Source: Rhizobiales bacterium NRL2 (GTDB lineage: Bacteria > Pseudomonadota > Alphaproteobacteria > Minwuiales > Minwuiaceae). From it: DNA of 64,000 bases. Both the position numbers and the translations under genes were made by a program. The stretch spans positions 2,301,001-2,365,000 of the forward strand of contig CP016093.1 in the NCBI GenBank assembly GCA_001664005.1, written 5' to 3'. Position 1 is the stretch's first letter. Each line of letters opens with the position of its first letter. This document shows, in pieces, positions 36,463-47,301 of this stretch. A model generated the notes under the pieces. The model searched no databases, was not told the origin of the DNA, and worked only from the letters and a program-made list of their open reading frames with translations.

Positions 36463-36576
36463 CTCGCCCTCCTGCTGAACATGTTCGCGACATGTTCCGG
36501 CGTTCTGGCGAGACTGTCGAACGAAATGATCTCAGGCGTCACGCTAGTTCCGCTCACGAGAGACGGCGCCGGCGGG

Positions 36577-41507: not shown

Positions 41508-42758
41508 ATGTTTTCCGCCTTCGAATGGATGATCGCCGTCCGCTACCTTCGCGCCCGCCGCGCCGAGGGTTTCATCTCCGTCATCGCCTGGTTCTCGCTG
41601 GTCGGCATCGCGCTCGGCGTCGCCACGCTGATCATCGTCATGGCGGTGATGAACGGATTCCGCACCGAACTGCTGGACCGCATCCTCGGGCTGAACGGCC
41701 ATGTCTCCGTGCTCTCCTACGAGCAGCCCATCGAGGACTACGAGAGCCTGGCGGACCGCATCCGCGGGATCGAGGGGGTGGTCAGCGCCGCGCCGCTGGT
41801 GGAGGGCCAGGTCATGGCGACTGCCGGCGGTGAGGCGCGCGGCGCGGTGGTGCGCGGGCTGAAGCTCGACGACATCACGGCCCACCAGGCGTTGTCGGGC
41901 AAGCTGGTGGCGGGCGAACTCGCCAATCTGTCCGAACCGGGCACCGTGATGGTCGGCTTCCGCCTGGCCGAGCGCTTCGGCCTGCAACTCGGCGACCGCA
42001 TCACGCTGATCTCGCCCAAGGGCTCGTCGACCGCCATGGGCTTCGTGCCGCGGCTGGCGACCTACCGCATCGGCGCGATGTTCGAGGTCGGCATGTACGA
42101 ATACGACTCGAGTTACGTCTACATGCCGCTGGACCTGGCGCAGAAGTATTTCCGCACCGGAGAGGGGGTGACGGGACTGGAGGTCGTGGTGGCCGACGCC
42201 GACCGCGCCACGATGCTGGCCCAGGAGATCCACCGCGAGATCAGCAGCGACCGCAATCTGCGCGTCTTCGACTGGCAGCAGGCCAATGCCAGCTTCTTCA
42301 CCGCGCTGCAGGTGGAGCGCAACGTGATGTTCCTGATCCTGACGCTGATCATCCTGGTGGCGGCGTTCAACATCATCTCCAGCCTGATCATGCTGGTGAA
42401 GGACAAGGGCCGCGACATCGCCATCCTGCGCACCATGGGCGCGACCCGGGGCGCGATCCAGCGCATCTTCTTCATCGCCGGCGCCTCGATCGGCGTGGTC
42501 GGTACGCTGGCCGGCTTCACGCTGGGCGTCGTCTTCTGCCTGAACATCGACAGCATCCGGCGCGGCCTTGAGAGCCTGACCGGCACCGAGCTGTGGTCGC
42601 CGGAAATCCGCTTCCTTTCCCAGATACCGGCCCGGATGGAGACCGGCGAGGTGGTCATGGTGCTGATCATGGCGCTGGTGCTCTCCTTCCTCGCCACGAT
42701 CTACCCGGCCTGGCGGGCGGCGCGCCTCGATCCGGTGGAGGCGCTCCGCTATGAGTGA
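41508..42758 (+). CDS. lolC: Lipoprotein-releasing ABC transporter permease LolC/LolE
   Basis: A 416-residue inner-membrane permease that, as a homodimer or with a second copy, extracts outer-membrane lipoproteins for LolA. It starts [20 protein letters not shown] and has the FtsX-like fold: one N-terminal span, a periplasmic domain with [20 protein letters not shown], and three C-terminal spans. [20 protein letters not shown] is the coupling motif contacting LolD. Only one permease gene is present, as in many alphaproteobacteria. Overlaps lolD by 8 nt. Confidence 0.95.
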
Positions 42759-43437
42759 TCCGGCGCTGCGACTGGACGGCGTCACCCGCACCTTCCGCCA
42801 GGGCGGGAAGGCGCTGGAGGTACTGCGTGGCGCCTCGCTGGAAGTCCGGACCGGCGAGATCGTCGCCCTGGTCGGCCCGTCCGGCGCGGGCAAGTCGACG
42901 CTGCTGCAGATCGCGGGTCTGCTGGAAAAGCCCGACGGCGGCGACGTCGTCATTGCCGGCCAGTCGGCGGCGGGGCTGAACGACGACCGCCGGACGGCGA
43001 TGCGCCGGACCCTGTTGGGCTTCGTCTACCAGTACCACCACCTGCTGCCGGAGTTCACCGCAGCGGAGAACGTGATCCTGCCCCAGATGATCGCGGGCAA
43101 GAGCCGCAAGGAGGCGGCGGTGCGGGCCGCGGAACTGCTGGGCCAGATGGGCCTCGCCGAACGCGGCGACCACCGCCCGGCGCGGCTGTCGGGCGGCGAG
43201 CAGCAGCGCGTCGCCATCGCCCGCGCGCTGGCCAATCTCCCGGCCGTCCTGCTGGCCGACGAGCCGACGGGCAATCTCGACCCAGGCACCGCCGGCCGGG
43301 TCTTCGATCACCTGGTCGAAGTCGCCCGCGCCGCCGGCACCGGCGTCCTCGTCGCCACCCACAACCTCCAGCTCGCCCGCCAGATGGACCGCGCGGTGCT
43401 GATGGAGGACGGCGTCCTTCGGGAGGCGGCATTGTGA
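42751..43437 (+). CDS. lolD: Lipoprotein-releasing system ATPase LolD
   Basis: A 228-residue ABC ATPase. Walker A is GPSGAGKST, followed by [20 protein letters not shown]; signature [15 protein letters not shown]; Walker [17 protein letters not shown]. The Q-loop segment [20 protein letters not shown] is LolD-like. It is coupled to the permease gene by an 8-nt overlap. The stop at 43437 lies 2 bp before the direct-repeat array upstream of the microprotein gene. Confidence 0.96.
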
Positions 43438-43439
43438 GA

Positions 43440-43478
43440 GAACATGGGTTGACATAAAGAGAACATAAAAGAAACATA
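43440..43478 (+). promoter_or_regulatory. LexA-like direct-repeat array with TTGACA
   Basis: Four tandem half-sites GAAC, TGAC, GAAC and AAAC start at 43440, 43450, 43461 and 43472, each followed by AT, so the period is 10-11 bp. The alphaproteobacterial LexA site is the direct repeat GAAC-N7-GAAC (GTTC-N7-GTTC). The 43461/43472 pair matches 7 of 8 core bases and the 43450/43461 pair 7 of 8. A perfect TTGACA (43449-43454) lies inside. The -10 is weak (AACATA at 43473). Confidence 0.55.
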
Positions 43479-43504
43479 TGCCTCCAACGCAGCAGGAGGA
43501 GGCG

Positions 43505-43612
43505 ATGATGGAATGGATGAGGGATCTCGGCGCGCTGGCCGCGCTGGTCGGAATCTGGGGCGTGCTGGCGGCCTGGACGCAGATGTTCGGCGCACTGTCC
43601 GGCATCGGCTGA
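43505..43612 (+). CDS. 35-residue single-span membrane microprotein, SOS-like control
   Basis: A short frame encoding 35 residues: a short N-terminal charged segment (MMEWMRD), a hydrophobic stretch LGALAALVGIWGVLAAW that should span the inner membrane, then TQMFGALSGIG. Coding is supported by a very strong Shine-Dalgarno run, AGGAGGAGG (43493-43501 region), 4 nt before tandem ATG codons, and by a dedicated promoter region with LexA-like repeats. The design (tiny inner-membrane protein, LexA-type control) recalls SidA of Caulobacter, an SOS-induced division inhibitor. Homology to SidA is not claimed. It lies between lolD and dnaE. Confidence 0.6.
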   Translation: MMEWMRDLGALAALVGIWGVLAAWTQMFGALSGIG

Positions 43613-43655
43613 GCGGAAGCGGGACGGACCCGGGCGGCGAGGCGCCGACGGTCCT

Positions 43656-43676
43656 GTCCACAGCTTCGTCCACAGC
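43656..43676 (+). repeat. Direct repeat with DnaA-box-like cores upstream of dnaE
   Basis: GTCCACAGC occurs at 43656-43664 and 43668-43676, one helical turn apart. Each contains TCCACA, the core of DnaA boxes (7 of 9 to TTATCCACA). The rest of the 215-bp gap before dnaE shows no gene I can support. Confidence 0.4.
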
Positions 43677-43827
43677 AATCTTGCAAACGGGGGACGAATG
43701 ACGCCCGCCGCATGGGGACTTGGACGCCGCGGTCTGGGACAATGGACGCGCGGCGGCCGATTCTCCGGCAGGGCACGGGGGGCGGCCGCGCGGGTTCTGA
43801 TCGGGCGGCAGCGGAGAGAGTTCGGCC

Positions 43828-46800
43828 ATGGCGCATGCGGAGTTCGTGCATCTGAGGACGCACAGCGCCTATTCCCTCGCCGAGGGCGCGATCCGGCTCG
43901 GCGACCTTGCCGGGGCGGCGGCGAAGGCCGGCATGCCCGCGGTGGCGGTCACCGACACCAACAACCTGTTCGGCGTCATGGAGTTCTGCCCGGCGGTGGC
44001 CGGGGCGGGGGTGCAGCCGATCATCGGCTGCCAGCTTTCGGTCCAGTACGGCTGGGACAGCCGCGCGCCGGCGGGCCAGCAGCGGCCGCTCTTCGCGCCC
44101 TTCGTCCTGCTGGTCCAGAACGAGACCGGCTACATGAACCTGATGGCCCTGGTTTCCGCGGCCTTCCTCGAATCCGATCCGATGTTCTCGACGCATCTGC
44201 CGCTCGGGGCCATGGAGGGCCGAGCGGACGGGCTCATCGCGCTCACCGGCGGGGCGGGGGGACCGCTGGGACGGATGCTGGCCGACGGCGACGCCGCCGG
44301 CGGACGCGCCTGGCTTGCGGAGATGAAGGCCCGTTTCGGCGACCGGCTCTATGTCGAAATCCAGCGTCATGGCGAGACCGAGGAGGACCGGGTCGAGGAA
44401 CCCATGATCGACCTCGCCTACGATCTCGACCTGCCGCTGGCGGCGACCAATGACTGCTATTTCCTCGACAAGGACATGTACGAGGCGCACGACGCGCTGA
44501 TCTGCGTCGCAGAAAGCGCCTATGTCGGCCAGGAAGAGCGGCGGCGGCTGACGCCGGAGCACCGCTTCAAGTCGGCCGAGGAGATGAAGGCGCTGTTCGC
44601 CGACCTGCCCGAGGCGACGGCCAATACCCTGGTGATCGCGAAGCGCTGCGGCTATGCGGCGCCGAAGCGTGACCCGATCCTGCCGGGTTTCGCCACCGAG
44701 GGCGGCCGGGCCGAGGCCGACGAACTTCGCGCCATGGCCGAGGCGGGGCTCACCGAACGGCTCGCCTTCATGCGCGAGCAGGGTCATGAGCCCGACGAGA
44801 CCGTCTACCGGGAGCGGCTGGACCGGGAACTGGGGATCATCATCTCCATGGGCTTCCCGGGCTACTTCCTGATCGTCGCCGACTTCATCCAGTGGGCCAA
44901 GGCGCAGGAGATTCCCGTCGGCCCGGGCCGTGGTTCGGGCGCGGGCTCCCTTGTCGCCTATGCGTTGACCATTACCGACCTGGATCCATTGCGTTACGGG
45001 CTGCTGTTCGAGCGGTTTCTCAACCCTGAACGCGTGTCCATGCCGGACTTCGACATCGACTTTTGCCAGGACCGGCGCGACGAGGTGATCGAGTACGTTC
45101 AGGCCAAGTACGGCCACGACAAGGTCGCCCAGATCATCACCTTCGGAAAGCTGCAGGCCCGGGCGGTGATCCGCGATGTCGGTCGGGTGCTGCAGATGCC
45201 CTATGGCCAGGTCGACCGCATCTCCAAGCTGGTGCCGGCCAATCCGGCCAATCCGGTGACGCTCGGCCAGGCGCTGGAGAGCGAGCCCAGGCTGCGCCAC
45301 GAATACGACTCCGACGGCTCGGTGCAGTACCTGGTCGACATGGCGCTGAAGCTGGAGGGGCTGTACCGCCACGCCTCGACCCATGCCGCGGGCGTCGTCA
45401 TCGGCGACCGGCCGCTGGAACAACTCGTGCCGCTCTACCGAGACCCGAAGTCCGACATGCCCGTCACCCAGTTCTCGATGAAGTACGTGGAATCCGCGGG
45501 GCTGGTGAAGTTCGACTTCCTGGGGCTGAAGACGCTGACCGTCCTCGACCGCGCCATCGCCCATGTCCGCGAGGGCGGCCGGCCGGACTTCTGCCTGGCC
45601 GACATCCCCGAAACCGACGAGCGGACCTTCGAGATGCTGGGGCGCGGAGAGACGGTGGGCGTGTTCCAGCTCGAAAGTTCGGGCATGCGGGATGTGCTGC
45701 GGCAGATGAAGCCCGACAAGTTCGAGGACATCATCGCCATCGTCGCCCTCTACCGGCCGGGCCCGATGGACAATATCCCGACCTACATCTCCACCAAGCA
45801 CGGCCGGGAGGCGGCCAGCTATCCGCACCCGATGCTGGAGCCGATCCTGGCCGAGACCTACGGCATCCCGGTCTATCAGGAGCAGGTGATGCAGATGGCG
45901 CAGGTGCTCTCGGGCTACAGCCTGGGCGAAGCGGACCTGCTACGCCGGGCCATGGGCAAGAAGATCAAGGCCGAGATGGACGCCCAGCGCGAGCGCTTCG
46001 TCGAGGGCGCGGCGGAGAACGGCGTCACGGCCGAGAAGGCGGGCCAGATCTTCGAGCTGATCGAGAAGTTCGCCGGCTATGGCTTCAACAAGTCCCACGC
46101 CGCGGCCTACGCCCTGATCGCCTGGCAGACGGCCTGGCTGAAGGCGAACTATCCGGCCGAATTCCTGGCCGCGTCGATGACCCTGGATATGGGCAACACC
46201 GACAAGCTGGATGTCTTCAAGCGCGAGATGAAGCGCCTGAAGATCCCGCTGCTGCCGCCTGCGGCAAACCACTCGGAGGTCGCGTTCTCGGTCGAGCGCA
46301 ACCGCGACCTGACCGTCGCCGGCATCCGCTACGCCCTGGCCGCGATCAAGAATGTCGGCCGCGACGCCATGGGCGCCATCGTCGCCGCACGGCGCAAGGA
46401 CGGGCCGTTCGCGGACCTGTTCGACTTCGCCGTGCGTACCGCCGGCTCGGCGCTGAACAAGCGCCAGACCGAGAATCTCGCCCGCGCCGGCGCGCTCGAC
46501 GAGCTGGACCCGAACCGCCGCCGGGTGCTGGCGTCCGTGGATATCCTCGCGCGCTACGCCCAGCAGCAGGCCGAAGACCGCGCCAGTGGCCAGATGGGCC
46601 TGTTCGGCGGCGGGGGCGGTGGCGGCGGCAATGCGGACCGGCCGCCCCTGCCGGCGGTCGAACCCTTCGACGACCTGGAGCGGCTGGCCGAGGAGCGCGG
46701 CGCGATCGGCTTCTACCTATCCGGCCATCCGCTGGACGACTACCAGCAGAAGCTGGCGCAGAAGGGAGTCTCCCGCATTGACGAACTGCCGGCGATACTG

Positions 46801-47301
46801 GGCGAGACGCAGAAGACCAACATCGCCCTGGCCGGCACGATCTCGGCGGTGCAGATCCGCCGCAACGCCAAGGGCAAGGCCTTCGCCTTCATCGGCTTCT
46901 CCGATCCCAGCGGCGAATGCGAGATTCTCTGCTTTTCGGAGGCGCTGAACCGCCATCGCGACGAGATGGAGGCGGGGCGCAACGCCGTCTTCTATGTCGA
47001 CATCCTGCGCGACCGCGACGAACCCACCCTGGCGCTGAACAAGATGGCGGACCTGGACGGCTATGTCGCGGATGCGGAGGCGGGCGCACGCATCGTCATC
47101 GCCGACAGCTCGGCGCTGCCGCCGATCCGCGCCACGCTGGACCGGGCCGGGCCGGGCAAGGGCCTGATCCGGCTGGTGATGCGGCCCCAGGACCGGACGC
47201 GGGAACTGGAGCTGGAAGTCCCCGACGGCTTCCGTATCGACCGCGCCGTCCGCCAGTCCCTGAAATCCATGCCGGGCGTGGTCGACGTCCGCGAAATCTG
47301 A
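43828..47301 (+). CDS. dnaE: DNA polymerase III alpha subunit
   Basis: A 1157-residue replicative polymerase. The N-terminal PHP domain starts [20 protein letters not shown]. The catalytic region includes [20 protein letters not shown] and the metal-binding acidic motif [13 protein letters not shown] (about residues 405-417). Further blocks are [40 protein letters not shown] and the HhH region, then an OB-fold near [20 protein letters not shown]. Length and motifs fit DnaE1, not the shorter mutagenic DnaE2/ImuC. GGAGAG precedes the ATG. A Gly-rich linker lies near residue 930. Confidence 0.97.

Follow-up and report, generated by a model that had tools for sequence, protein, structure and literature searches.

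A probable SidA homologue encoded upstream of dnaE, behind a predicted LexA box, in an alphaproteobacterial genome

Introduction

According to PMC4211646, SidA of Caulobacter has 29 aa, resides in the inner membrane, and interacts with both FtsW and FtsN; mutations in FtsW or FtsI give relief from it. An excerpt of PMC12700426 attributes the filamentation of Caulobacter lacking lexA to constitutive sidA expression. DidA of the same bacterium (71 aa) is likewise a damage-induced single-span division inhibitor, but is SOS-independent and DriD-driven and in two-hybrid assays binds FtsN rather than FtsW (same excerpt of PMC4211646). YneA of Bacillus and SosA of Staphylococcus, which belong to another phylum and are likened here by description and not by sequence, appear in excerpts of PMC13396833 and PMC6851548 as SOS-induced division inhibitors, YneA being reported there to interact with FtsW.

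Here we analyze a small open reading frame (ORF) in a 64-kb stretch of genome G000, hereafter the window, that lies between lolD and dnaE and encodes a predicted membrane microprotein about half the length of DidA. SidA itself is already known, and it is the breadth of a conserved address upstream of dnaE that is new: among the open-access titles and abstract openings searched, a set without the original 2011 SidA paper, neither SidA beyond Caulobacter nor the lolD-dnaE address is described.

Results

Between the stop codon of the upstream neighbor (43437), an ORF that we take to be lolD, and the start of dnaE (43828) lie four NRACAT half-sites, a TTGACA, a Shine-Dalgarno run, and a 35-codon frame (Table 1), all of them recovered at the coordinates given in a first-pass annotation of this DNA. 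The frame opens with tandem ATG codons at 43505 and 43508, and its stop codon ends at 43612. Because ATA replaces the first ATG in congener G004 in the genus alignment, the start is probably the second, so that 43508 may be the true start of a 34-aa protein, with the Shine-Dalgarno run ending 5 nt ahead of the start codon. A 44-codon version starting at 43478 is disfavored because it has no Shine-Dalgarno and is missing in five of the seven genus genomes. The product, of 34-35 residues, agrees with the single-span microprotein proposed earlier: its best 19-residue hydropathy is 1.64, AlphaFold2 models a single helix over residues 2-32 (pLDDT 91), and it has no family match in NCBIfam or Pfam.

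Table 1. Features at and around the microprotein gene (positions in the window)
Feature	Position	Strand	Remarks
Presumed lolD, upstream neighbor	42751..43437	+	ORF with ABC-ATPase motifs
Half-site array, presumed LexA operator	43440..43477	+	Four NRACAT: 43440, 43450, 43461, 43472; aligned in 7/7 genus genomes
TTGACA, presumed -35	43449..43454	+	TTGAC invariant in 7/7 genus genomes; no consensus -10
Predicted LexA box GAACATAAAAGAAAC	43461..43475	+	One mismatch to GAAC-N7-GAAC; top matrix match in 64 kb
Shine-Dalgarno run AGGAGGAGG	43494-43502	+	Nine bases; GGAGG-type run aligned across the genus
SidA-like microprotein ORF MMEWMRDLGALAALVGIWGVLAAWTQMFGALSGIG	43505..43612	+	35 codons + stop (34 if start = 43508)
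Gap to dnaE	43613..43827	.	215 nt; two TCCACAG motifs at 43655-43675
dnaE, downstream neighbor	43828..47301	+	ORF; N-terminus matched in 68/76 class genomes

Nine genomes of the order were searched, seven of the genus (the window's own included) and two of other genera. The microprotein was found in all seven genus genomes, and the start region, Shine-Dalgarno, and promoter array can be aligned across them; the frame, the ribosome-binding site, and the direct repeats, whose presence in relatives had been suggested as a check, are thus all conserved. Synonymous changes outnumber nonsynonymous ones 10 to 0 between G006 and G004, 4 to 0 between the window genome and G007, whose proteins are identical, and 4 to 0 between G005 and G008. 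Comparing the G006/G004 group with the G005/G008/G003 group gives a nonsynonymous-to-synonymous ratio (of proportions) of 0.11-0.16; for the window pair against the other genus genomes it is 0.38-0.74, which is weaker evidence. By these substitution patterns the ORF evolves as a protein, with purifying selection on its amino acids, and on sequence grounds it is a real gene, so far unannotated. Among the rejected candidates, a match in G001 (L009) was dropped, lying inside a 197-residue frame, the better homologue of that genome being L044, which like L045 was found by profile and not by genomic position; four weak matches (L050, L051, L058, and L059) have no box and look like chance.

Such selection weighs against a reading in which the frame is a leader or upstream ORF that controls dnaE, through attenuation or a LexA-driven second promoter, with the peptide incidental. 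The shared strand, the 215-nt gap, and a simple scan of 43613..43827 that found no terminator-like site would all suit such a leader, but its amino acids are under selection and G002 keeps both ORF and box though dnaE lies about 0.9 kb downstream, so that we regard this reading as very unlikely. The two TCCACAG motifs in the same gap resemble DnaA-box cores, and in three relatives TTCCACAG occurs between microprotein gene and dnaE.

The first-pass annotation had further proposed that pairs of half-sites approximate the GAAC-N7-GAAC repeat, and of these pairs only that at 43461 (GAAC/AAAC) has a single mismatch, that at 43450 (TGAC/GAAC) having two. RACAT three times at an 11-bp period occurs once in the window and in none of 100 shuffles. 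The bare GAAC-N7-GAAC consensus with up to one mismatch is at chance level (43 matches in the window vs. 40.1 expected) and is therefore not taken as evidence; the significance of the predicted box comes instead from a weight matrix and from relatives. With a matrix built from 45 perfect boxes at loci outside the window's family, 43461 ranks first and 43450 second in the 64-kb window, the former scoring 25.9 bits against 22.7 for the box of the genome's own lexA and 30.5 for that of an imuA-like gene. Another matrix, built on loci from the order of Caulobacter and with four degenerate boxes included, again ranks 43461 first, and under a uniform background 43450 drops to fourth place. In both versions, the observed score is reached by none of 2000 column-permuted matrices and none of 2000 letter shuffles of the region. 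The matrix scan called for at the outset singles out 43461 as the best site in 64 kb.

Relatives point the same way. In all six other genus genomes the final pair of half-sites upstream of the gene is a perfect GAAC-N7-GAAC, perfect boxes also precede the homologues in both genomes of other genera (G002 and G001), and the AAAC of the window's last half-site is a mismatch seen in no searched congener. In the window's own genome the perfect box occurs 96 times vs. 32 for the reversed pattern; one copy, GAACTTACGTAGAAC, lies 42 nt before lexA (PF01726, PF00717) and another, GAACAAAAATAGAAC, 30 nt before an ImuA-like ORF, whose ImuA match of 78.8 bits is below the NCBI cut-off of 150, a pairing that marks a LexA regulon using the alphaproteobacterial box. 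Together, these comparisons support the earlier proposal of LexA control and argue that the microprotein gene sits behind a putative LexA switch. TTGAC, which stands just ahead of the box in several other families as well, is invariant directly before it in the genus, and LexA would therefore sit on the promoter; a simple sigma-70 scan of the microprotein's upstream region returned no complete promoter.

The window copy is the only one of the seven genus genomes without a perfect box here, which would fit a gene that has escaped LexA in this species through a degenerate box and is now idle or constitutive. Yet it encodes the same protein as the G007 copy, the two genes differing by synonymous changes alone, its box still outscores that of the genome's own lexA, and several Caulobacter sidA promoters likewise have one-mismatch boxes only, e.g., GAAC..GAAT with GAAC..AAAC, as in the window; we consider such loss of control the least credible of the readings weighed here, and retain that of a LexA-switched gene.

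Several other box-like sites came to light. In five of the seven genus genomes (L003-L007), though neither in the window nor in G007, GTTCTCATTTTGT stands some 30 nt ahead of the array and scores 13.9-22.4 bits as a second LexA-like site in the opposite orientation. The sole perfect GAAC-N7-GAAC of the window (36483-36497, minus strand), among its top three matrix matches, stands 21 nt before a GFA-family ORF (36462-36037, minus strand, PF04828) and could be either a LexA target or chance. Elsewhere in the genome, at L065:1027-2001 (G000 about 2726326), a perfect LexA box lies 33 nt ahead of an ORF at least 309 codons long, for which neither Pfam nor NCBIfam gave a match and which is thus a candidate for an unknown SOS gene. 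An identical box, GAACATTGCCGGAAC, occurs four times in G000 (L015:1501, L074:973, L075:1038 and 2074), and the three copies examined lie inside long ORFs, which points to a repeated element and not to LexA sites.

For comparison, named genomes were scanned with the Caulobacter-type DnaE N-terminus, which provided at least 44 loci. In C. vibrioides DSM 9893 (L183) the gene order runs lolC-like ORF, lolD, inosine-uridine nucleoside hydrolase (PF01156, opposite strand), LexA-boxed 29-codon ORF, and dnaE, where the 29-codon ORF matches NF033228, the model for the cell division inhibitor SidA, at 72.4 bits (cut-off 35). Published gene numbers, as given in excerpts of the respective papers, agree with this location of sidA before dnaE: sidA is CCNA_02004 (PMC10769358), CCNA_02005 is a nucleoside hydrolase (PMC3667746), and dnaE is CC1926 in another numbering (PMC1839093). 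Across 34 loci mostly titled Caulobacter, Caulobacteraceae, or Phenylobacterium (L181-L214; L180 is too short to read), a SidA-type 29-codon ORF starts from ATG in 33 and from GTG in L187, and a box of at least 16 bits, by a matrix that some of these loci trained, is present in 33, the exception (L209) being a sequence cut 137 nt before dnaE. The nine loci L215-L223, from Cypionkella, Pseudorhodobacter, Dongia, a Rhodospirillaceae, and an untitled proteobacterium, show neither SidA-type ORF nor box (best 7.5 bits).

The window locus shares with SidA the predicted LexA box, the place upstream of dnaE, a length of about 30 residues, a single span with G and W, and an acidic residue that follows a basic one near the start. 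It differs in that its protein falls below NF033228 detection and is a few residues longer at the C-terminus, and in that it lacks the nucleoside-hydrolase gene found between lolD and sidA in C. vibrioides. No NF033228 match was obtained for the window protein at the 35-bit cut-off, nor any in G000 at E 0.01; a SidA HMM tells the window protein apart from its shuffles (0/300) but does not do so for the congeners' proteins (95-175 of 300), and permutation tests were therefore run.

The main test took every one of the 16 position-found ORFs from outside the window's own family and that of Caulobacter (f1 and f64), and its shuffles keep charged start and membrane part apart. With each sequence shuffled alone and relatedness ignored, none of 1000 shuffle sets matched the 16 ORFs as well as the window protein does, which also exceeded 1000 of 1000 sets against only seven ORFs, one per family, and SidA exceeded 1000 of 1000 and 998 of 1000 sets, respectively. 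Individually, 10 of the 16 resemble the window protein (0-38 of 500 shuffles) and six do not (L087, L112, L124, L134, L135, and L179; 58-164 of 500). Three intermediates resemble both the window protein and SidA, namely L117 (0 and 2 of 500 shuffles), L171 (11 and 0), and L172 (6 and 1), whereas the direct window-SidA pair is not significant (277/2000 shuffles). A group test against SidA with columns permuted jointly was modest (16/1000 for the clade, 31/1000 for the window protein alone), its sets omitting L112, L124, L135, L179, L106, and L134, a choice for which the sequences had been in view. The same holds for A3, a profile built from 22 such proteins, in which L112, L124, L135, and L179 were left out as not visibly aligning and L106 and L134 trimmed. 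A3 aligns without gaps along the membrane span, where D/E follows a basic or polar residue and, after three residues, there is often L, with G and W further on. FtsW-family proteins are encoded in the window genome, and a comparison of FtsW gave a general match only and was set aside.

The place was then surveyed across the class. Of 76 class genomes, one per family, 68 yielded the DnaE N-terminus; the region upstream was read in all 68, with at least 150 nt in 67, and many of the 68 have a lolD match before dnaE. Eight of the 67 families have a perfect box followed by a hydrophobic ORF of 24-60 aa before dnaE. The antisense strand gave no such case in 67, and of ten control half-sites eight gave 0 and two gave 1. 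Allowing one mismatch gives 11 families vs. 2 (antisense) and 0-5 (control half-sites); the matrix gives 9 of 67, window included, vs. controls of 0 and 0 at 16 bits, and 11 of 67 vs. 3 and 1 at 12 bits. At 16 bits, 58 of the 67 sampled families have no recognizable copy upstream of dnaE. Among the best-scoring 30 of 60 genomes of Caulobacter's order, a selection biased to near relatives, 21 have perfect box and ORF, as do 12 of the 13 from Caulobacter's family in that selection.

Blind to both box and position, A3 produced matches in 68 of the 385 class genomes searched (E 0.1). Of the best 30 loci, 24 were examined, the other six being four of the window's genus, G284, and G026. A box of at least 16 bits was present in 20 of the 24, L238 included; six are profile members, and the other 18 divide into 14 with a box and four without. 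Several of the 14 share genus or family with an A3 member; those that do not are L243 and L247 (family f91), L246 (f71), and L252 (f137). dnaE comes next in 18 of the 20 boxed loci, L242 having a run of N before it and L247 ending too soon. The four unboxed matches (L249, L250, L251, and L255) are parts of longer proteins, presumably diacylglycerol kinase, without a 16-bit box (L250 15.0), and were counted as misses; a SidA-like profile that catches the end of diacylglycerol-kinase-like proteins is a ready false positive for such searches. NF033228, by comparison, recognizes none of 289 sampled class genomes at its 35-bit cut-off, the Caulobacter vibrioides control being positive, so that most alphaproteobacteria have no annotated SOS division inhibitor of this kind.

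These matches also bear on a reading in which the microprotein, though membrane-bound and under LexA control, has no common origin with SidA and is instead a convergent SOS peptide at a favored place upstream of dnaE, acting on another target or depolarizing the membrane. Short hydrophobic helices converge easily, as the four profile matches to pieces of longer proteins illustrate, and the direct similarity to SidA is weak and without an NF033228 match; against this stand the shared place, LexA box, and length, the gap-free common pattern in A3, and the intermediates that resemble both proteins, and on balance we think convergence unlikely. The window protein is most likely a SidA-like homologue, argued via intermediates, place, and regulation and not filed in NF033228. 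The first-pass annotation had stopped short of asserting homology; the resemblance now looks like homology at the same locus, with weak direct pairwise similarity.

Discussion

In light of these results, we propose as the probable explanation that the window encodes a diverged, unannotated SidA homologue at SidA's place upstream of dnaE, repressed by LexA and stalling division after damage. Comparison of genomes supports the gene, the selection on it, its box, its position, and its family resemblance. By analogy with SidA, we infer LexA action here, a block of division, and FtsW/FtsN as the target. LexA on the half-site array beside the -35 element would keep the microprotein gene off until DNA damage, through RecA-stimulated LexA cleavage, releases it; the strong Shine-Dalgarno would then allow prompt translation, and the single-span peptide would insert in the inner membrane and hold the late divisome (FtsW with FtsN/FtsI) inactive, such that septation waits for repair.

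On a broader scale, we see an even chance that the SidA checkpoint is an old alphaproteobacterial SOS module, with a LexA-switched single-helix peptide at a fixed lolD-dnaE address that many lineages would have kept and others lost, the helix changing along with the FtsW of each lineage so that annotation sees only the Caulobacter form. On this reading, read-through into dnaE might in addition couple the division stop to polymerase supply. With a fixed address before dnaE and a LexA box to look for, candidate SOS division inhibitors can be sought directly, and the natural series of proteins of roughly 28-47 residues provides material on how one membrane span can stall FtsW.
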